A stretch of 25,473 nt of DNA from a virus. This document shows positions 469-12,136 of this stretch, piece after piece (position 1 is the first letter of the stretch; each line of letters opens with the position of its first letter). The DNA lies in the IMG/VR virus record IMGVR_UViG_3300043119_000806, positions 1 to 25,473 of that record. One strand, given 5' to 3'. A program made the position numbers and the translations under genes. The notes below the pieces were generated by a model. The model did not search any database. It was not told the origin of the DNA and worked only from the letters and a program-made list of their open reading frames with translations.

Positions 469-735
469 TCAGTACCGGAACTTCCAGCGGCGCGTGACGC
501 GCCGGCCGGTTGTTTTGAGCGTGCAGGCTTCCGACAGCCGCACCAGTTCCCTGTCCAGATCCGCCAGCCTGCCCGGTGAAAACACGACCGCTTCTCGCGT
601 CACCGGGGACTGGATCGACATTTCGCCGACCTGTTCGCCGGAGAGCATGCGCAACTTGACGGCATAGAGCGCCTGGTAGAGCGCGCACGGATCGTCCGCA
701 TCGACGCTGGCCCCGTTGATCGTCACCATCGCCAT
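469..735 (-). CDS. gpW-like head-to-tail joining protein
   Basis: 88-residue protein. In lambda, gpW (68 residues) plugs the portal after packaging and makes the platform for tail attachment. The middle of this protein follows the gpW pattern: a helix ALYQALYAVKLRMLSGEQV, a beta hairpin ending in VVFSPG, then a second helix RLADLDRELVRLSEAC and a basic C-terminus (RRVTRRWKF). The ATG at 735 overlaps the portal stop as TGATG, which decides the start over longer in-frame upstream codons and suggests translational coupling. It sits between portal and head protease exactly as W sits near B and C in lambda (lambda order is A-W-B-C; here it is A-B-W-C). The fold assignment rests on pattern and position, so is moderately strong. 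Confidence 0.75.
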   Translation of the reverse strand: MAMVTINGASVDADDPCALYQALYAVKLRMLSGEQVGEMSIQSPVTREAVVFSPGRLADLDRELVRLSEACTLKTTGRRVTRRWKFRY

Positions 736-2351
736 CAGGCATCCGCCTTCTGCTTGCCCGAGGCGGGCTTGTCCTCGTCCTCGCCGCCCCCGGAGGGATC
801 GCTTGGCAGCCCCCGTTCGAAGGGCGACGGCATGCCGGCATCCTTGTATCGCTTGTGCCAGCGCAGCCGGCTCTCGAAGACCTCTTCCGGATCCTTGCCG
901 AGTTCGGCGCATTCATCCTCGAGCGTCGAGGATCCATTGGCGATGCGCTCGCTGGCGGCCTTGGCGCGTTTCACGTCGTCGGCCGTCGGCTTGGACGGGC
1001 CAAGGCATATGGCCCACTGGATGGCGTCCCGGTTGGCGCGATAGACCTCGACGCCGGGCTTGAACGGGATCCGGCCTTCCTCGATCTCCTCGTCGAGCCA
1101 GCTGGCATAGGGAACCAGCACATGTGGCGCGGCGATCCGGTCGGTGCGGCGCTGCGCGATCGGCCAGAGCGCCGAATTCTCCATCATGGTCGAGGCGTAG
1201 GTCGCCTTGGTATAGTCGAGCGTGTAACCGCCATAGCTGATGCCGAGCGCCCGCGCCGTCTCCCGGTGAAGGGCGCTGATGAATTCCGGGTAATCCGTGC
1301 CCGGCGCATCCGGCGTCTGGAATTTCAGCTCCTCGCCGGGCGCCAGGTGCGACACGCCGGCGCCGGCGCCGAGCCGCACTTCGCTTTCGGCGGCGCGGTC
1401 GAGCTGCGCCTTGAAGTAGTCGACGAAATCGGTCGCGATGTCCGCGGCATTGTCCGCCCCGGTTTCCTTCAGCGCCTCAAGCGCCTCGAAAGCGTCAGCC
1501 GATGGCCGGTCGCTGGTCAGCGTCACGGCATAGATCGTCTGCAGGAATCGCACCTGCGCGGCCGCGTCGTCGACGTTCTCCGCCATCAGGTATTTGCGGA
1601 ACGTCGAGGCGAGAACCGAAATCCCACGCACATCGTCCGACGAGAACGGGTCGAAGGCGTGCATGACCAGCTGGCGTCCGTCGCGGTCGCGCGCCGGGTA
1701 ATCCCGCTTTCCGGTGATCCCGGCCCGCTTCTCCTCGAAGCGGTAGTGCGTCGGGCGGCCATAGGCATCATGGACGACGCCCTGGAACAGCCCTTCGAAC
1801 TCGTTGGTCTCCTGCACCAGCTTTTGCGGCTGCAGCATCAGGAACTTGGTGCCCGTCCGGCAGCCGGCAAGTCGCTGCGACCGCGGCAGATAATCGACGA
1901 CGCCGAGGCTTTCACCGAAGGCCAGCCAGTGCCGGATGCCGATGTCTGTCTGCTGCGGCAGGGTGAACTTGGCACGGAAGTCGCACTCGATTGGGTTCCA
2001 TGCCCAGGTCTTGAACCGCCCCTTGACCAGCCGCACCCACTCGATGGCTTCCCGGTCGCTGTAGCCGAACCGCGTCAGATCCGGCTTCGGGTTGAGCGCC
2101 AGCTCGACGCCGACCGTATCGGCAATGATCTGGTCGGTGGCGCCGCGAAGGCGTCCCGAATTCTGGATCAGATCCATGGCAAGCCCGGCCGCACGCCACC
2201 AGACGCGCCGAACCTCGTCGCGATGCTCGCGCAGCGAAGCCGGCCGGGACGCGATCACTCCCGAAGGCGTATCGCGCAGATAGGCGGCGGTCGGCCGGGC
2301 GTTGCGGGGAACCCCGACCGCCTTGACCCTGACCTTCGGCTTTTCCGTCAT
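735..2351 (-). CDS. Phage portal protein, lambda gpB family
   Basis: 538 residues, close to lambda gpB (533). It forms the dodecameric ring at one head vertex through which DNA enters and to which the tail joins. Family signs are the N-terminal helix with LAMDLIQNSGRLRGATDQI, the segment VGVELALNPKPD, the block CDFRAKFTLPQQTDIG, and the later ISYGGYTLDYTKATYAS, which corresponds to the conserved late core of phage_portal_2 proteins. The C-terminus is charged and low-complexity (GGGEDEDKPASGKQKADA). The ATG at 2351 overlaps the terminase stop as ATGA; a GTG at 2366 is in frame but less likely. Downstream it overlaps the gpW-like gene. No disruption is seen. Confidence 0.93.
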   Translation of the reverse strand: MTEKPKVRVKAVGVPRNARPTAAYLRDTPSGVIASRPASLREHRDEVRRVWWRAAGLAMDLIQNSGRLRGATDQIIADTVGVELALNPKPDLTRFGYSDREAIEWVRLVKGRFKTWAWNPIECDFRAKFTLPQQTDIGIRHWLAFGESLGVVDYLPRSQRLAGCRTGTKFLMLQPQKLVQETNEFEGLFQGVVHDAYGRPTHYRFEEKRAGITGKRDYPARDRDGRQLVMHAFDPFSSDDVRGISVLASTFRKYLMAENVDDAAAQVRFLQTIYAVTLTSDRPSADAFEALEALKETGADNAADIATDFVDYFKAQLDRAAESEVRLGAGAGVSHLAPGEELKFQTPDAPGTDYPEFISALHRETARALGISYGGYTLDYTKATYASTMMENSALWPIAQRRTDRIAAPHVLVPYASWLDEEIEEGRIPFKPGVEVYRANRDAIQWAICLGPSKPTADDVKRAKAASERIANGSSTLEDECAELGKDPEEVFESRLRWHKRYKDAGMPSPFERGLPSDPSGGGEDEDKPASGKQKADA

Positions 2352-4348
2352 TTGCGCTTTGCCCACCGGTTCGTCTTCGCCTTGTCAGGCGGTTTTGTCT
2401 CTGTTGCATCACGGCTCGCCTGGATCGGCGCCGCGGCTGTCTCCCTTGCCAAGACCATCTGGCTTGTGCTCGACAGCAGATCCGCGACCGTCTCCGGCTC
2501 CAGCTTCGCCCGAAGCGCCGCCCATTGGCTCTTGGTCAGCCGTGACAGGCCGAGATGCTCAGCCATGGCCATCGCGTAGATCCGGCAGTCGAGGAAGTGG
2601 TTGTGCTCGCGTCTGAGCGCCCATTCCTCGTGAAGCTTTCCTTTGGTCAGCTTCTGGTGGAAGTATTCCGCCGTCAGCTGCTGGAAGAACTCCTCGCCAA
2701 GTTCCATGTGGAAATGGCAGTAACCCGGCGGGTCAGAGGCCTCGCCGGAACGCAGACCAACCTTGTGCAGGTTGCCGTAGAGCTCGGCCTTCAGCGACCA
2801 TGTCCCGACATTCCAGTTCATCGCCGAGCCGAAGCGCTTGCGTTTGCCGCGCTTGGTGACGGACTTCCTGACCGGGGCACTGATGGCCGGGATGCCGCGG
2901 CCCGGCTGCCCCTTGAGCGCGTATGTGTCCGGTCGACGGCGGCAAAATTCCAGCACCTGGTTCGTGCGGTAACCGCTATCGACGCCCAGCGCCTCGATCT
3001 TCCGCAGTACACCGAAGGCGTCTGGAAACTCTTGCGAGCAATACTCGTCGAGCAGACGAAACGCGCCGGCCTGTGGATTGTCGGTCGGTCCTTCGAAGAA
3101 CTCGGCAAAGACGTTCCAGCTTTGCCGATCCTCGCCGAAAGCGACGCCCTCGCAATAGATGCCATAGGACTGCACGTCGGCGCCGGCGACGAAGATCAAG
3201 CCGCCGGAGGGGATCGTGCTGGCGAGATAGTTTTCCCGCCGCTCCATAAGGCGCTGGTGGTCCGGTGCGTTGCCCTTCATCTGGTAGGGCAGAGCCAGCA
3301 CCAGGTTGTGATAGTCCTTGGCCCCCGCCTCGCCCTTTGCCTCATAACTGATCTTGTCCTCGGCGATAGCCTCGTAGGACATCATCAGCGACATGAACGC
3401 ATCGACGTGGAAGCCCGGATGGCGGTCCGGTCCCGTCAGCGACGGTATGTAGCGGCCCGCCCGGACGGCCTGCACCCGCTCCATCTCCGAGATGTGATGC
3501 GTGCACTTGATGCAGGCCATCACCGTCTTGTGCGGGTGGCCGCGATCGATCAGCAGGTTTGCATCGACCTGAACCTGTTCCGTCCCGCATTCAGGGCACG
3601 CTATGTGCCAGAACCGTTGGTCGGAACGGCGGAACGACCGGTCGATTCGGCAATGTCCGGGGCCTTCGCCGAGCGCATCGCCGCTGTCGAGCTCGGGCGT
3701 CGACAGCTCGAGGATCTTGTAGCTCTTCTGCCTGCGAAACGCCGTGAAGCGGCCGAAGAAGAGGTTTTCCGGATCCGCACCATTCGGCAGCAGCTGCCAT
3801 TTGGACACCTCATCCTTGACGCCGTATCGTGTCGTCTTGGCCGAGAGATCCATGACAGTGTTGGCGTTGGCGAGATAGATCGCCCCGCCGGGGAATTTCT
3901 TCTCGTAGGTCGTCGAGCCGACACCCGAACGGCTCGTCGTCGGGAAGATGATCTGTTTTCCGGTCTTGCGCTGCCACTCGTCGATGAGCGGCTGCAGCTT
4001 GCCGGAGTTGATGTCCTGCAGCGCGTCGATACCCGGCACACCATACAGCACGTTGTCAGGGCAGTTTTCGGCGATGTAGATCGACCAGGCGAGCGCCAAA
4101 ATGGTCACGCCGGTCTGCTGCGCCTTGCGCACCGACACCAGATTGCAGGGGTGCTCCTGACTGAGGCACTGCGCAATCTCGACGAGATAGGGCCCGTCCT
4201 CAACCGACCAGAGCTCTCCCTTCTTCGGCCCGTCGACCAGCACGATATTCTGCGCCAGCCACCGGTCGAACGGCACCGGAGGCTGTGGCCGGATCGCCGA
4301 CGACAGCGCCGAGGCCGCAAGCCTGAGGGCTCCCGGATGGATTGTCAC
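2348..4348 (-). CDS. Terminase large subunit, lambda gpA family
   Basis: 666 residues (lambda gpA is 641). It is the ATP-driven motor and nuclease that cuts concatemers and packages DNA into the procapsid. Visible parts: an N-terminal ATPase with a deviant Walker A around residues 74-82 (RKAQQTGVT, as usual in this family) and Walker B YGVKDEVSKW (about 175-184); two CxxC pairs (CPECG and CIKC) making a zinc-binding insertion near the middle; and a C-terminal nuclease with GADVQ, GVDSGYR and LDCRIYAMAMAE. It starts with GTG at 4348, overlapping the small-subunit stop as GTGA. The gene looks intact. With the small subunit it should recognise the packaging site, proposed to lie just upstream at about 4936-5082. 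Confidence 0.95.
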   Translation of the reverse strand: MTIHPGALRLAASALSSAIRPQPPVPFDRWLAQNIVLVDGPKKGELWSVEDGPYLVEIAQCLSQEHPCNLVSVRKAQQTGVTILALAWSIYIAENCPDNVLYGVPGIDALQDINSGKLQPLIDEWQRKTGKQIIFPTTSRSGVGSTTYEKKFPGGAIYLANANTVMDLSAKTTRYGVKDEVSKWQLLPNGADPENLFFGRFTAFRRQKSYKILELSTPELDSGDALGEGPGHCRIDRSFRRSDQRFWHIACPECGTEQVQVDANLLIDRGHPHKTVMACIKCTHHISEMERVQAVRAGRYIPSLTGPDRHPGFHVDAFMSLMMSYEAIAEDKISYEAKGEAGAKDYHNLVLALPYQMKGNAPDHQRLMERRENYLASTIPSGGLIFVAGADVQSYGIYCEGVAFGEDRQSWNVFAEFFEGPTDNPQAGAFRLLDEYCSQEFPDAFGVLRKIEALGVDSGYRTNQVLEFCRRRPDTYALKGQPGRGIPAISAPVRKSVTKRGKRKRFGSAMNWNVGTWSLKAELYGNLHKVGLRSGEASDPPGYCHFHMELGEEFFQQLTAEYFHQKLTKGKLHEEWALRREHNHFLDCRIYAMAMAEHLGLSRLTKSQWAALRAKLEPETVADLLSSTSQMVLARETAAAPIQASRDATETKPPDKAKTNRWAKRK

Positions 4349-4935
4349 GCTTCCTCGTCCTCGATCATCGGATCGGTTTCCGGCGCTGCGTCTGCGAGCT
4401 CTGCCAGCTTGTCAGCCATCTGGTTGCCGATCTCGAACGCAATCTGACGCAACAGAACCCGAACGCCGTGTACGCCTTCCTTCGAAACTGCCAGCGCAAC
4501 GTCGTCGGCGCGGTTGGGCAGACGCCGAATGATCGACAGAAGCTCCGCGCCGATGGCCCTATGGCCGTCCTCGAGACGGTCGCGGCGCACCAGCTGGCCG
4601 CACTCCTCCTGGTGACGGATCTTCTCGCGACCAACCTTCAGCCATTCCGACTGGCGCCGGGCCTCGTCAAAGCTGTCGCTGGGGTTGATCGGCGGCACTG
4701 ATGCGGCCGGCACCACCGGCCTGATCGGAGCACTGGCTTTGGCCGGGTTCACAAACCGTTGGCGATAGTGATCATAGTGCGCGAGCGAGACCTTCATGAC
4801 CTGCCCCTGCCCGCCGCGCTCGACGGGCGTATCGGGCCGATCCTCGATCAGCTTTTTCACGGTCTTGGACACCGCCGGCTTTGAAACGCCGTCTCTCGCA
4901 GCAATCTGCGAGATCGACCACATCACATCCGTCAT
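4345..4935 (-). CDS. Terminase small subunit-like DNA-binding protein (Nu1 role)
   Basis: 196 residues. The N-terminus has a clear helix-turn-helix, WSISQIAARDGVSKPAVSKT (residues 6-25), then a linker and a helical C-terminal half rich in Arg/Glu (DEARRQSEWLKVGREKIRHQ onward), consistent with oligomerisation and binding to the large subunit. In lambda, Nu1 recognises repeated sites in cosB. This gene directly precedes gpA and overlaps it (GTGA), the standard place for Nu1. The ATG at 4935 is 2 nt from the first of five GTTAACC repeats, which are attractive candidate binding sites. Sequence similarity to Nu1 itself is not obvious beyond the HTH, so the role is inferred mainly from position. 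Confidence 0.8.
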   Translation of the reverse strand: MTDVMWSISQIAARDGVSKPAVSKTVKKLIEDRPDTPVERGGQGQVMKVSLAHYDHYRQRFVNPAKASAPIRPVVPAASVPPINPSDSFDEARRQSEWLKVGREKIRHQEECGQLVRRDRLEDGHRAIGAELLSIIRRLPNRADDVALAVSKEGVHGVRVLLRQIAFEIGNQMADKLAELADAAPETDPMIEDEEA

Positions 4936-4937
4936 CC

Positions 4938-4986
4938 GTTAACCTGACTGTTAACCCCCGCGTTAACCACGTTAACCCCGTTAACC
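4938..4986. repeat. Five GTTAACC repeats before the terminase genes
   Basis: GTTAACC occurs at 4938, 4950, 4962, 4971 and 4980, all in the same orientation, with steps of 12, 12, 9 and 9 nt (42 nt over four steps, a mean of 10.5). Each core GTTAAC is itself a palindrome. The array starts 2 nt upstream of the small-terminase start codon. It resembles a cosB-type recognition array, but could also be an operator for the late operon. Confidence 0.8.
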
Positions 4987-5082
4987 CAATTTTTTGACCC
5001 GTTTGTCTGCCCAGATATCGGGAGCAACTCCGCCCGCAGGGGGTGGGGGCCGGGTACGGTCCCTTGACCAGGGGGGGGTGGG
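4987..5082. other. Gene-free G-rich spacer, candidate packaging-cut region
   Basis: The stretch between the GTTAACC array and the tail-Z gene has a T6 run (4991-4996), then a strongly G-rich part including a G8 tract at 5071-5078 and several G4-G5 runs. No ORF with coding character is seen. Lambdoid cos sites combine repeats for Nu1 with a GC-rich nicking site, so the nicking site might lie here, but no known cosN sequence is recognised. Confidence 0.35.
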
Positions 5083-5712
5083 TCAGTCGAAGAAGCCGGG
5101 GACCAATGCCCCGATCTCGTGGATCGTGCGCTTAGGCAGCTCGGTCGACACGGTTTCGGTGAAGGCCTTGGCCGATGCTCCGGAGATCATCTCCGATGGG
5201 ATGACCACGCCCGAGTTCAACAGTTCAAGCGGCCCTCTGCCCCCGCCCGTCCTGCGATAGACGTGGCCATTCAGGCCCTTTGCCGTCACGCGGTTGGGGA
5301 AGCGGCCACCCTTCATGAAGGCCTGGTTGTAAAGCCTGCGAACGCCAAATGGTGAGGCCGTGACGCCCGCCCGCGTTTCGCGCGCCTTGAAGTATTTGAG
5401 CGAGATATCCCCGCCGGATGCCCGGATCGTATAGGAAAGGCTGGCATCCGTGCTGACCGAAACCGGCCCGCCGACGAACTCCTGCCGCGATCCATAAGCC
5501 CGATCTGTCTTGAGCGCCTTGCGGATCACCCCGTAAGGCAGGCCCGTCTGCTTCGACAGCACCCGCGCAACCTGTGTCCGCGCCTTGTCGCCCGTGTGAT
5601 TGACCGCGCGCTGCAGGACCAGCATCTTTTCCGGGCCATCGAGCCGCTTCATGGCGTTCTCGACACGAAGCATGCCCGCGACGTCCTGCCATTTGATGGT
5701 CAGATCGGCCAT
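5083..5712 (-). CDS. Prophage minor tail protein Z-like
   Basis: 209 residues. It matches the lambda gpZ/prophage minor tail Z pattern: VLQRAVNHTGDKARTQVARVLSKQTGLPYGVIRKAL near the N-terminus, then YTIRASGGDISLKYFKARETRAGVTASPFGVRR and a Gly/Arg-rich GHVYRRTGGGRGPLELLNSG. In lambda, gpZ helps complete the tail and its head joint. It starts with ATG at 5712 behind a TGTGGGG ribosome site. Its place is odd: gpZ-type genes normally follow the head genes, but here the gene stands upstream of the terminase with the putative cos region between them. It is separate from both neighbouring operons. The family call is good; the reason for its position is unknown. Confidence 0.82.
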   Translation of the reverse strand: MADLTIKWQDVAGMLRVENAMKRLDGPEKMLVLQRAVNHTGDKARTQVARVLSKQTGLPYGVIRKALKTDRAYGSRQEFVGGPVSVSTDASLSYTIRASGGDISLKYFKARETRAGVTASPFGVRRLYNQAFMKGGRFPNRVTAKGLNGHVYRRTGGGRGPLELLNSGVVIPSEMISGASAKAFTETVSTELPKRTIHEIGALVPGFFD

Positions 5713-6943: not shown

Positions 6944-8732
6944 CAGAATGGCTCCGGGAAGGGTTCGTCGCGATCGAAGCGGCCGGGCGGCGGCTCCTGT
7001 CCGCGATCGACATGGGGCACGTTGACGAGGCGAATGCCGCGATAGAGCACCACGCCCGACGATCGGTCCTTTTCGAACTTCTTGCCCATGTCGCGCCCGA
7101 AGGCGGTGTTGTTCATCGGCTTGCCGCCCTGGTCGATGGTGAAGTCGCAGAAGGCCTGGTAAAGCACCTTGCCCTCGACAGGCGGCGCATTGTCGTCGCG
7201 CTGGATGCAGCGCGCGACGAAGGCCGCCGTGCGGTCCATGTCGTCGCGATAGGCCTGTGTTGCCTGCACCACGGCCTCGGGGATCACCAGCCCCTCGCGC
7301 AGGTAGATCTTCACGCCCTCGATCAGCCAGTTGAGGATGCCCGGATATTCCGGCTCGAAACTGGCGATCACGTCCTGGAATTCGCGCCGGTCTTCCTTGG
7401 CAATCTGGCGCGGCCAGTGGATGACGGCCATGCGCCGCCATATGCCGTCGTCGGTGCCGGAAATGCGCGGATAGCCGTTGCCGCTCATCATGGCGATGAA
7501 TTTCGGTTCGAAGTCCATGTATCCGGAAAACAGGTCGCGGGCCGTGACGGTCTCGCCGCCGGTCAGCTCCTTGACCAGGTTCTCGCGCAGATCCTCGCCC
7601 TCCGGCAGCTCCTTGACGCGCAGCAATCGCTTGCCGTAGAGGCGCCGCCCGAGGAGCCACCCTCGCCGATGATCGAGGTCGAGGGTAGCGTCACGGCCGC
7701 CTCGCCCAGCACCCGGCAGAGCGTTTCCATGTAGACCGACTTGCCGTTCGCCCCGTTTCCGTAGTGGAAGAACAGATATTGCACGGTGATCCCGAGCATG
7801 CTGAGACCCGAACTCACCTGAACCAGCCGGCGCACCGCCTCGTCGGGCAGCTTGCTCGATATGAAGGCGTCCCAGGTCGGGCACGTGGCCTTCGGATCGT
7901 AGGAGACGGCCGCGACGCTGGTGATCAGGTCCTTGCGGCGATGGCCGTCGATCACCTTGAGGCGGAAATCGGTGCAGACTTCGATGAGCTCCGGCGCGTC
8001 CGGCGTTTCCTCGAGGCTGACATGGCGCGGGTTTTTCCGCTTGGCCATGGTGCGCTCGAATCGAAGCGTGGCGTTCTTGACCGCGACCATCCACTTGTCG
8101 GCGTTGAAATCGTCGGGGCTGCGCATGATGTGCGGCGCGATGCTTTCGAGCATGGCGTTGATCTTGGCGACGTTCTTCGAGGTCACCGCATGGTCGAGCC
8201 GGCGTTTCACCCGCTTGCCATGGGCTTCCAGCGCCTTGTCGGCCTCGGCGATCAGTTTCCTTTCCAGCGCGCCGCGCTCGCCTTCCGGCTTCTTGCGAGC
8301 CTCTTCGGCCTGGTCGATCACCATCTGCTCGTAGGGATTGGGCTTGATGTAGAGAACCTCGGCCGCGATCCGGTCGCCGAGGCGCTGGCCGATCGCCTTG
8401 GCCTTCGGCCCGCCATTGGCGACATCCCAGTGCGAACCGGTCCAGACGGCGAAGGTCGGGTTCTTGCCCTTCTCCTGGGCGACCACCAGCAGGTCGTCGC
8501 CGAAGTGCAGCCTGAGGCGCTTGCCGTTGTCCGTGTCGGAATGGTCCATCTCGGCGCAGAATTCGACAATGGCCGGATCGGCATCGCTGTCTCCGGCCAC
8601 GGCCGCGACAGTCTCGCCCGCAGGGCCTTCAGGGGTTTCGGGGTTTTGGGTATATCCGGCCCGCTGGGCGGTCGCCTCGGCGAGGATGCGCGCGACGGCT
8701 TCCGGAATGCCCGGCTTCTGCTTGTCAGTCAT
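6943..8732 (-). pseudogene. D5-type SF3 helicase/primase C-terminal protein, frameshifted
   Basis: Virus-type replicative helicase read in two frames. The first part (ATG at 8732, about 363 codons) contains the D5 N-terminal region (WDAFISSKLPDEAVRRLVQ) and the SF3 Walker A GNGANGKS at about residues 325-332, ending sensibly at IIGEGGSSGG near 7644. The next sensible residues, RLYGKRLLRVKELPEGEDLREN and KELTGGETVTARDLFSGY with FIAMMSGN and DDGIWRRM, lie in another frame and run to the stop at 6943. One base (or 3n+1) appears missing; no slippery heptamer is seen. The start overlaps the primase stop by 8 nt. Either the gene is broken, or the sequence has an error; a few residues before RLYGKR may also be missing. 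Intact it would unwind DNA at the adjacent origin. Confidence 0.8.
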
Positions 8733-10014
8733 TCTCTGTCCCGTCCGCTTGCGCCATCGCGGCCACCATGGCGTCGGCAAAATCCTGTCCTTCCGGTGGC
8801 CACCAGGTGGTGACGCTTCGCCCTTCCCGGCCTAGCCGTGCCTCGGCGCGGGCCATGTCGGAGGCGGTCGCCACCGGCTCGCTGTCGCCGTCGGCGATCA
8901 GCACCAACTCGGTCACGTGATCGGGCACCTGGACGGCTTCGTCCGGGCCTTGGGCCCGCCGGGGCACCGGCCCCTTGACCTTCACCCGCTTCCACCGGCC
9001 GGCGGTGTCCTGCTTCTTCAGCGTCGGATGGAAGAATGCCGAATCGGGATCGGCGGGGCCAGCCAGATTGCCGATGTCGCCGGCGGCGAAATAGAAGGTG
9101 TCGGCGCGAAAACCCTCCGGGCCGGCAATGGCGACCACGCTTTCGATCCCCTCGCCGCCAACCCAGCGCCGGACTTCCGGATCGCCGTAGACCGGGATCA
9201 ACCCGCCCTTCTTGGCGCCGCGCATCTTCTTGGTCGGAAGCGGTTCGCCCTTGTCGTCGAGGCCGAGATCCGGCCTGTGCTTTGGCGCGCGTCCGAGGTC
9301 GATCCATGTCAGGTGGGAACCGACGATGTGGCCGGCCGGGTCGACGAAAGGCGCAACCATAGCAGGCCCGCTATGAATCGAGACCGGCCGACCGAAATCG
9401 TCCTGCCCATGCCAGTAGCTGCAGGCGGGAATGAAGCGCAGGTGATCGAACACGCCGCCCGGCACGTCGAAGCCGGTGCGGGCCTTGTGATAGCCGGCGA
9501 TCACTGTCGCGCCGCGGACGGCCTCTTTTCCGTCGGCGCCGCAATCGACGGCATGCAGCCACAGGCCGCGCGCCTTGCCGATCTCCTTGGCCCGATGCTC
9601 GTCCGCCGACTTTTCATTGTCGGCGCGGCGCTGTTCGGCGCGGGCCTTGGCCGCGGCGATGCGCTCCTCGCGGGCCTCGCGCTCCTCGTCCGTCTCGCGC
9701 TCGCCTTCCGACGGCACCGGCTCGCGGAGCACGGCGGCGCAGGCGAGCAGGAATTGCGCGCGGTTGCGCAGGTCGAGGCCTGCGACATGGGCGGCAAGCC
9801 CGATCCCGTCATGGCCGCCGGTCGAGCATCCACGGCAGTTCCAGACTCCCTTGCCACGATTGACGGAAAATCGATCCTTGCCGCCCTCGGCCGGGCAAGG
9901 CCCTTGATATTCCGTCTTGCCCTTCGGCGCGTCCGGGATCTTCAACCGGTCGCAGGCATCAGCAAAGGACAGGTCGCGAGCCCGGGCGATGAATTCGTCG
10001 AGGATGGTGCTCAC
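8725..10014 (-). CDS. Phage DNA primase: zinc ribbon plus Toprim
   Basis: 429 residues, starting with GTG at 10014 (GTGA overlap with the methyltransferase stop). It should make RNA primers for phage replication. The N-terminal P4-type zinc ribbon is YQGPCPAEGGKDRFSV ... GVWNCRGCSTGG (about residues 36-67), but the usual second Cys after CP is Glu43, leaving Cys40, Cys60 and Cys63, with His68 a possible fourth ligand. A long charged helix (about 100-160) links to a Toprim domain with GGEGIESVVAIAG and ADGDSEPV, followed by the typical TTWWPPEGQDFADAM. Family, pairing with the SF3 helicase and operon position agree. The missing Cys is the only oddity. Confidence 0.88.
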   Translation of the reverse strand: MSTILDEFIARARDLSFADACDRLKIPDAPKGKTEYQGPCPAEGGKDRFSVNRGKGVWNCRGCSTGGHDGIGLAAHVAGLDLRNRAQFLLACAAVLREPVPSEGERETDEEREAREERIAAAKARAEQRRADNEKSADEHRAKEIGKARGLWLHAVDCGADGKEAVRGATVIAGYHKARTGFDVPGGVFDHLRFIPACSYWHGQDDFGRPVSIHSGPAMVAPFVDPAGHIVGSHLTWIDLGRAPKHRPDLGLDDKGEPLPTKKMRGAKKGGLIPVYGDPEVRRWVGGEGIESVVAIAGPEGFRADTFYFAAGDIGNLAGPADPDSAFFHPTLKKQDTAGRWKRVKVKGPVPRRAQGPDEAVQVPDHVTELVLIADGDSEPVATASDMARAEARLGREGRSVTTWWPPEGQDFADAMVAAMAQADGTEND

Positions 10015-11927
10015 TCGGCCGCCTCCATGACAAGTTCGTGCCGCACGTTCAGTTCGGCCAGGAGGCGGATCATCTTCGGCGGCACGCTGTTTCCGACCAG
10101 GTGGTATTTCTGGGTCTTGGTGAGTTTCTGCATCTTGCCGTCGATCGTGATATGGTCCGGAAGCGCACCGGGCTTGAAGCCGTGGGCCGCTGCGCCTTCT
10201 TCCGGCTCCAGCATGCGCACGCCGATATCGGTGATGACATAGGTGTCGCGGCCGATCTTCACGGTCACAAGTCCGTGCCGTGCCTTCGAGGTCAAAGCGC
10301 CAAGGGGAACGTCCAGCGACTGGTCCTGTCCGCCGGTCCCATAATAGTGCTGCAGGAAACCGAGGATCAGGCCGGCATGGTTGCCGGATGCGCAGGTCGC
10401 TGCCAGCGGTTCGAGGATATCCCGACCGTGCTTGCTCGTCCCTCGCAACGCCAGCATGGACGCCGCGACGACACCCTGTTGCGATCCGGCGCTTGTGATC
10501 GTCGAGACCGGGTCGAGTGGGTCGCGAGCCGGCTGACCGGGATGCGAACCGGCACTGTGCTGCGCAAGGAACACGGAAGAGACGGCAACCTGCGGAGACG
10601 TCGTCAGGGCCGCAAGCGGTTCGTCGGCGCCCCTTCCCTTGCGGGCGGCCTTGGTCCCATCCGCGCGCGGATCGCTGTTGTGCTGTGCAAGGAAAGCCGA
10701 CACCAGCGCCGCCTTGCTGCCGCCACCGACCTGCGTGCCCAATGGCTGCATCAGGTCGAGCGTGCGAGGCGCCTGCCCTTCCCTCTCTCCGTACCCGGTC
10801 TGCACCATGGTCGCGGCCATGAGACCGAGCGGGATAGCGCCGCCAGGTCTGGTATCGAAGCTGTTCGCCGTAAAGGTGGCGAGAGGCTCGCGCATGTCGT
10901 TCCCGACCGACCCGGTGCGGAACTTGGCGATGGAAGGCACCGCCACCATGTTCTCGCCGCCCTTGGCGGTGGTGATCGCGCACAAAGGCTCGTCGGTGGA
11001 TCGCGCCTGGTTCGACCCCTTGGTGTGGGTGATCGGCACGATGAAGGGCTTTGCCGCCTCGACGACATAGCGCATGACCCCGCGCGCCGTGCGCCGCTTC
11101 GTCGCCTCGGCCAGTTCTTTCTTCCGCCCGAAGATGGATTTGACCGGCAGCGAGAAGTCGATGATCGTGTTTGCGCCGACCCATGGCTTGAGGCCGAGCT
11201 TCTTCGCCAGTTTGCGCGGTGCGTGGGTCCGCTCCGGCCAGACGATCGGGCTGCCGTCCGCCTTCCCGACGCCGAACAGGCGCTTGCGGATCGTCGCCAC
11301 GCCGTAGTCGGCGCAGACGAGCACCCGGTACTCGAAGTTGTAGCCGAGATGAACGCGCAGATGCCGCAGCCAGGCCTTCCAGATGCGCCCCCTGTGCTTC
11401 GGATCCGGGACGAGCCACTGTTCCTGCACCGGCACGCGCTCGCCCTTGGCAGCAACGCTTCCATCCAGCCGGAGCACCCGCCCGGTGGCCTTGTCGCGTT
11501 TCGCGATCAGCGGCCCCCATGTCTGGATCTCCGACACGTTCTCCAGCGTGATCGTCTCCGGGCGGACCTGCCCTGCCCAGCGGCAAACGACCCATGCCAG
11601 CGACCGGCGGCGCTTGCTCACCGGCTTGCCGCCCTTGGCGACCGAGAAATGCGTGCAGTCCGGCGAGGCGTGCAAGGCCCGTACGCCGCGCCCCTTGGTC
11701 GCTTCCTTCGGGCAGACGTCCAGAACGTCCGTCTTCAGGTGGCGAGTGTGGCGGTGGCGCACCTGGTGGACCGCGATCGCGACAGGATCGTGATTGATGG
11801 CGAGGTGCACATGAAATCCGGCTTCTTCCAGCCCGTCGCAGCCACCGCCCATACCGGCGAAGAGGACCACCGTCATGCGGTTGTCGAGAGCGAACGGCAG
11901 AGACTTCCCTTGGAGCGCGATATTCAT
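10011..11927 (-). CDS. C5-cytosine DNA methyltransferase with internal repeats
   Basis: 638 residues. It transfers methyl from SAM to cytosine C5 and probably shields phage DNA from host restriction. Motif I is VVLFAGMGGGCDGLEEAGF (residues 20-38), motif IV is HASPDCTHFS with catalytic Cys91, motif VI is LENV (128-131), motif VIII is YGVATIRKR (208-216), motif IX is GVRMLEPEEGAAAHGF (569-584) and motif X is GNSVPP (612-617). Between VIII and IX, where target recognition lies, are seven degenerate repeats of xPLxAiTt type beginning near 313, 347, 394, 436, 469, 506 and 540. ATG at 11927 has AAAAGGGGTGG upstream and overlaps the previous stop (ATGA); longer upstream reading is unlikely. No partner endonuclease is visible, so it is an orphan enzyme. 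Confidence 0.92.
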   Translation of the reverse strand: MNIALQGKSLPFALDNRMTVVLFAGMGGGCDGLEEAGFHVHLAINHDPVAIAVHQVRHRHTRHLKTDVLDVCPKEATKGRGVRALHASPDCTHFSVAKGGKPVSKRRRSLAWVVCRWAGQVRPETITLENVSEIQTWGPLIAKRDKATGRVLRLDGSVAAKGERVPVQEQWLVPDPKHRGRIWKAWLRHLRVHLGYNFEYRVLVCADYGVATIRKRLFGVGKADGSPIVWPERTHAPRKLAKKLGLKPWVGANTIIDFSLPVKSIFGRKKELAEATKRRTARGVMRYVVEAAKPFIVPITHTKGSNQARSTDEPLCAITTAKGGENMVAVPSIAKFRTGSVGNDMREPLATFTANSFDTRPGGAIPLGLMAATMVQTGYGEREGQAPRTLDLMQPLGTQVGGGSKAALVSAFLAQHNSDPRADGTKAARKGRGADEPLAALTTSPQVAVSSVFLAQHSAGSHPGQPARDPLDPVSTITSAGSQQGVVAASMLALRGTSKHGRDILEPLAATCASGNHAGLILGFLQHYYGTGGQDQSLDVPLGALTSKARHGLVTVKIGRDTYVITDIGVRMLEPEEGAAAHGFKPGALPDHITIDGKMQKLTKTQKYHLVGNSVPPKMIRLLAELNVRHELVMEAAE

Positions 11928-12136
11928 ACGCCACCCCTTTTCGCCACATGCCGCGCCGCGTGAAGCGTGCGGCAGACCGCGTCCTCCGGCTGGTCCAGTA
12001 CCTGGCCGATGTCGTAGGTGTCGAAGTGACCAGAATTCCACAGGATGATGGTGGCGAGCGCCTTCGTCTCTTCCATGGGACCGGCCATAGCGGACGAGCC
12101 TTTCAGTCGCGGGTCTGCAATGCCGAGTGGTTTCAT
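11924..12136 (-). CDS. Small protein with possible helix-turn-helix
   Basis: 70 residues, unknown. The second half, TYDIGQVLDQPEDAVCRTLHAARHVAKR, looks like a helix-turn-helix of the region-4/response-regulator kind, so DNA binding is possible. ATG at 12136 overlaps the upstream gene's stop (ATGA), and its own stop overlaps the methyltransferase start (ATGA), so it is firmly embedded in the operon. Internal Met codons at residues 17 and 21 are alternative starts. No family is recognised. Confidence 0.65.
   Translation of the reverse strand: MKPLGIADPRLKGSSAMAGPMEETKALATIILWNSGHFDTYDIGQVLDQPEDAVCRTLHAARHVAKRGGV

Follow-up and report, generated by a model that had tools for sequence, protein, structure and literature searches.

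The region between positions 4938 and 5082 of the window (i.e., the whole 25,473-nt stretch of viral DNA analyzed here) very probably serves a temperate rhizobial phage as its cos site, judging from comparisons with related sequences, and its elements are ordered cosQ-cosN-cosB when read toward the small terminase gene, terS. It appears to be a previously undescribed form of lambda-type site, in which cosB is a compact array of direct repeats. Also apparently new is a correspondence, across the sequences compared, between residue 20 in the recognition helix of the small terminase subunit (TerS) and base 5 of the cosB repeat.

A repeat array directly before the small terminase gene

The putative cos region lies directly upstream of terS and then a GpA-type terL, as lambda-type sites do. 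A gene for a tail completion/Neck1 protein (5083–5712, minus strand; PHROG 27) ends directly before it, and it is followed by terS (4345–4935, minus strand; PHROG 57, E 3.6e-19), by terL (2348–4348, minus strand), which encodes a GpA-family ATPase and nuclease (Pfam PF05876 and PF20454), and, downstream of terL, by the gene for a lambda-family portal protein (735–2366, minus strand; Pfam PF05136). The initial annotation had placed the array just before an HTH-bearing small terminase gene, which agrees with both the PHROG assignment and the AlphaFold model of TerS (mean pLDDT 82.9, pTM 0.40). The model has an N-terminal winged HTH with its recognition helix at residues 19–32 and its wing at 38–50; residue 20, a proline in the window and the candidate specificity residue by covariation, is the second residue of this predicted helix. 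A Foldseek search of the PDB with the TerS model gave nothing significant (the top hit was ZitR, E 0.13), and the TerS sequence profile matched MarR-type HTHs only (best TcaR, E 0.0028). Of the solved HTHs, ZitR and AdcR are among the closest, with weak matches (E about 0.2); these MarR repressors bind TTAACYRGTTAA operators (PMC6372160), and ZitR has Ala at the position aligned to residue 20, a parallel to the TerS residue and repeat word that is suggestive only. Elsewhere in the window, the replication region encodes a large C5 cytosine methyltransferase (10011–12041, minus strand; Pfam DNA_methylase, 676 aa), and a relaxed-specificity type of this enzyme has been reported in related rhizobial phages (PMC5537653).

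The candidate cosB (4938–4986, minus strand) comprises five GTTAACC units starting at 4938, 4950, 4962, 4971, and 4980 (steps of 12, 12, 9, and 9 nt; mean 10.5), exactly as first annotated. Counting on both strands found only these five copies in the whole 25-kb window, while dinucleotide shuffles (n = 100) gave a mean of 0.35 units and reached five in 0 of 100 cases. Read on the gene strand, the array is GGTTAAC five times (4980–4986, 4971–4977, 4962–4968, 4950–4956, and 4938–4944), with steps of 9, 9, 12, and 12 toward terS. All repeats are direct, with 2–5 bp between neighbors and the five 7-bp units within 49 bp, and just 2 bp separate the array from the TerS ATG (4935). When related phages were compared, as had been proposed with the original observation, GTTAAC arrays were found to be kept before TerS in related rhizobial phages and prophages.

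The initial annotation also held that the units lie on one DNA face. In the window all repeats do cluster on one face, to within about 103 degrees, and for 18 distinct repeat spacings of relatives, whose arrays share ancestry, the mean resultant was 0.70 versus 0.55 by chance (random spacings that kept the first two steps unchanged; 0 of 5000 reached the observed value). However, some relatives' arrays are out of phase (e.g., steps of 9, 9, 12, and 17), so that one-face phasing describes the window and exceeds chance among its relatives, but does not extend to every array. Distance to cosN is more constrained than helical phasing.

A fixed module of cosQ, cosN, and spacer

Relatives of TerS were drawn from viral contigs and genomes, by DNA pattern, and from Rhizobiaceae genomes, and their sites are of types A, B, and C, with GGTT-type, CTAAAG, and TGCACG repeats, respectively. 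On the gene strand, the module upstream of terS consists of a C-rich tract, a cosQ-like GGTC(A/T)AGGGACCGTA, 28–29 bp, an 18-bp CGGG-N10-CCCG, 50 bp, and the array. The window's C-rich tract (5070–5081, minus strand; the plus-strand G-run) lies directly before cosQ and is retained in relatives with other upstream genes. The cosQ-like element GGTCAAGGGACCGTAC (5054–5069, minus strand) has the core GGGACC at 5058–5063, which puts it 29 nt ahead of the predicted nick. The putative cosN CGGGCGGAGTTGCTCCCG (5019–5036, minus strand) is conserved in types A, B, and C and coincides with the deposited genome ends of Rhizobium phage vB_RleM_PPF1 (hereafter PPF1). Between cosN and the array, the spacer (4987–5018, minus strand) is of fixed length, with a conserved CAG-type element near 5005–5012 and an A-rich run beside the first repeat. 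Of 41 distinct type A sites, 39 had 50 bp between CGGG of cosN and the first repeat, as did 10 of 14 type B sites; cosQ and cosN were 28–29 bp apart in all 41 type A sites, and the 14 nt before cosQ held a mean of 8.0–9.5 C in every site type. In L013–L018 the upstream gene has been replaced, yet the cos module persists, which argues that it is selected as a unit.

The G-rich block described initially is real (5040–5082, plus strand) and contains the cosQ-like element together with the C-tract. The cut had been tentatively placed in this block; it is instead predicted at 5023–5034, between the array and the block. A search of viral contigs for three GGTTAAC words with 2-nt gaps also recovered arrays away from any type A TerS (L039, L041, L043, L047, L054, and L055); the GGTTAAC word alone is therefore not diagnostic, whereas the fixed distance to cosN is. 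Likewise, GTCAAGGGACCGTA by itself also matches unrelated contigs. Neither Rfam nor tRNA searches gave a match in the window. The cosQ core is GGGTCC, as in lambda, in L038, L048, L196, L032, and Microcystis phage vB_MweS-yong2 (yong2; L214), and GGGACC in the window's group, a variation unlinked to the array word.

Short direct repeats about one turn apart resemble the iterons of replication origins, and pairs of TTAA recall the boxes bound by the host protein CtrA, but the interval between these arrays and cosN is constant and the repeat word varies along with TerS, and we consider the probability of an iteron array or host protein site to be practically negligible. CtrA boxes require TTAA-N7-TTAA; the TTAA gaps here are 5 and 8 (steps of 9 and 12, never 11), the N7 gap is absent, and a CtrA box was rejected.

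Deposited genome ends of relatives

Genome records of two phages bear on where a terminase would cut. The PPF1 record (KJ746502) has the left end GGCCGGGGCGAC... and the right end ...GCGGGCCGGGGCGAC, with 12 nt common to both at the cosN position; the deposited genome starts with GGCCGGGGCGACCCCG and finishes with CTGCGGGCCGGGGCGAC, and the 12 shared nt lie exactly at CGGG-N10-CCCG. The record of yong2 (OM681334), an independent phage whose TerS is 36% identical to that of the window, starts and finishes with the 12-nt ATGCGAAAGCGG, and its GGGTCC lies 29 nt from the nick. Both records have the first repeat starting at bp 49, and their 12-nt shared termini are placed 48 nt ahead of it. These ends are as given by the depositors, and the window itself is a 25-kb linear fragment whose own ends are not visible.

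Since the 12-nt termini of PPF1 and yong2, the lambda geometry, and the cosQ-nick distances agree, we predict that the cohesive end of the window phage is the 12-nt GGCGGAGTTGCT at 5023–5034 on the minus strand, for which the top strand would be nicked between 5035 and 5034, following CG. The overhang would be 5′, because GpA-type large subunits (TerL) are grouped with 5′ cohesive ends (PMC10127595) and by analogy to lambda. The PPF1 12-mer is off-center on the CGGG/CCCG dyad, and the exact limits of the predicted end may shift by 1–2 nt.

A pac site for headful packaging could also be considered here, as pac sites likewise lie in or near terS and contain repeats. The TerL of the window, however, belongs to the GpA class just mentioned, and the deposited ends of relatives have their 12-nt redundancy at the conserved cosN, which together make headful packaging from a pac site exceedingly unlikely.

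Covariation of TerS residue 20 and base 5 of the repeat

Residue 20 splits the repeat words perfectly among 41 TerS with arrays (mutual information 0.84 versus 0.48 for the next column): Pro20 or Ala20 occurs with GGTTAAC, and Gln20 with GGTTGAC or GGTTGTC; Met20, added subsequently, goes with GGTTTAC. In an extended set of 55 TerS, base 5 was A in 53 of 55 repeats with Pro20 and in 86 of 115 with Ala20 (G in 21), G in 72 of 79 with Gln20, and T in 8 of 8 with Met20 (the class found last, with GGTTTAC in two phages, L197 and L201), as counted by a simple word search, which may have picked up a few stray words from beyond the arrays. The TerS of L038 is 34% identical to that of the window, with Ala at the residue 20 position, and its array still reads GGTTAAC. 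Three Ala20 TerS have arrays in which GTTGAC outnumbers GTTAAC. L200, L182, and L207, whose TerS carry an SKAAISK helix, have arrays alternating GTTAAC and GTTGAC and form the sole group mixing words almost evenly.

A TerS tree from which the HTH had been left out showed 7–8 changes each in residue class and repeat word, and the independent pairs on its well-supported branches number 3–4, all concordant, but too few for significance alone. L080 and L020 are sisters in the rest of TerS, yet pair Pro with GTTAAC and Gln with GTTGAC, respectively, the pattern that joint transfer of array and HTH would produce. Because the two are physically adjacent DNA, co-inheritance or hitch-hiking could partially account for the covariation. 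The original suggestion of a cosB with an unfamiliar recognition word is supported by the covariation of repeat word and TerS helix, by the fixed cosN distance, and by an R3-like position (R3 being a cosB site of lambda and N15).

Modularity of the site and its occurrence in satellite-like elements

Type B phages have the same cosQ and cosN with a CTAAAG array and a different TerS, and type C phages (L077 and L135) have the same cosQ and cosN with TGCACG repeats and yet another TerS. Across the upstream genes, cosQ, and cosN, L085 is similar to L006, L007, and the window; just past cosN this similarity is lost, and a type B array and TerS follow. As array and TerS switch behind the same cosQ and cosN, TerS specificity probably resides in the array and the TerL-facing functions in cosQ and cosN.

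Cos modules also occur in satellite-like integrative elements. L072 (12.9 kb) and L102 (13.2 kb) encode an integrase, a primase/D5 protein, a short tape measure, and a PHROG 57 TerS, and comparison with the TerL, portal, and protease of the window gave no match. Each has two cos modules (2265–2400 and 4590–4715 in L072; 2980–3135 and 5055–5170 in L102), one of type A (GGTT-type array) without a following terS and one of type B (CTAAA-type). G016/L161 (also given as G016/L157) has a type A cos without an adjacent terS (L161/G016:C14:12434-12480), and L138 has a type B cos (8498–8514) without an adjacent terS and a type A TerS elsewhere (4747–5418). L138, L161/G016, and L025/L199 are similar to these in layout, with cos, a short tape measure, and, in part, TerS and an integrase. 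The presence of a tape measure where capsid genes are lacking suggests that a helper's tail is remodeled.

These elements bear on whether the array is instead an operator or leader of terS, serving autoregulation or a phage or host regulator. Such a role would suit an array that stops 2 bp before the terS start and a TerS whose weak HTH relatives, ZitR and AdcR, bind operators. However, L072, L102, and G016/L157 carry array, cosQ, and cosN without a following terS, and the module is therefore not merely a terS leader; moreover, the invariant distance is that to cosN rather than to terS, and the repeat word tracks the TerS recognition helix. We thus find an operator in place of a packaging element very unlikely, although the array could have a dual role in both.

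Beyond the cos site itself, we see about an even chance that residue 20 (Pro/Ala, Gln, or Met) dictates base 5 (A, G, or T), that array and TerS cassettes are swapped behind a constant cosQ-cosN, and that the two cos sites of satellites serve two unrelated helper terminases. If so, packaging by two helpers would answer why some satellites carry two cos sites, a question stated as open for the E. coli PICI EcCICFT073 (PMC6739421). Lambda-like packaging specificity has so far been known from few enterobacterial phages, and in vitro binding by lambda TerS is so weak that genetics was needed (PMC6739421). Here, dozens of natural variants link residue to base, which would amount to a simple recognition code that predicts which phage packages which DNA.

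Proposed mechanism and comparison with known cos systems

In the mechanism we propose, the winged-HTH domains of TerS would bind the GGTTAAC repeats of cosB through the recognition helix, with residue 20 reading the fifth base, and bound TerS would anchor the GpA-type TerL on cosN, exactly 50 bp away. TerL would then nick both strands 12 nt apart (5034/5023), generating cohesive ends, and packaging would proceed into terS-terL-portal. On reaching the next cos, the packaging motor would be able to stop and cut by virtue of cosQ (GGGACC) together with cosN.

The cosQ, cosN, cosB position, TerS fold, and TerL class all fit a lambda-type cos, with binding and cleavage putative. Shared with lambda are the order cosQ-cosN-cosB-terS-terL, a winged-HTH TerS, and a GpA TerL, and the 12-nt end predicted for the window would equal that of lambda in length (PMC9026076, PMC4669245). 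The lambda cosQ, GGGTCC, lies 30 nt before the nick, compared to 29 nt between GGGACC and the predicted nick in the window, and the first TerS repeat is at about bp 49–50 in lambda, PPF1, and yong2 alike. R3 occupies bp 50–65 in lambda and 48–60 in N15, and small deletions between cosN and cosB cripple packaging, those of 3 bp being severely defective (PMC9026076, PMC4669245). Specificity between recognition helix and R sequence is also known in lambda, where E24 is paired with bp 56 (PMC9026076). Unlike that of lambda, the window's cosB is compact and built of the word GGTTAAC; its repeats are too close together to admit IHF, and an inverted R2 is absent. The IHF site and inverted R2 of lambda are not obligatory, as N15 lacks them (PMC9026076); N15 resembles the window in having R3 at bp 48–60 and no IHF site, but has one critical site, whereas window-type arrays have four to six tandem sites.

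The closest comparison is PPF1, which shares TerS (64%), TerL (75%), the array, cosQ, cosN, and deposited ends at cosN, and differs in its cosN core (GGCCGGGGCGAC) and in extra degenerate repeats. No description of its cosB was found in the literature examined. The more distant yong2 shares the 12-nt terminal redundancy, GGGTCC at 29 nt, GGTTGAC at bp 49, and Gln at the residue 20 position, but its TerS is only 36% identical and it has one or two clear repeats. Finally, the satellite EcCICFT073, with its cos1 and cos2 and the protein Rpp (PMC6739421), parallels the rhizobial elements in having two cos sites that keep cosQ and cosN and differ in cosB; the rhizobial elements, in contrast, encode homologues of TerS (PHROG 57) and carry two cosB types that correspond to those of two local phage lineages.
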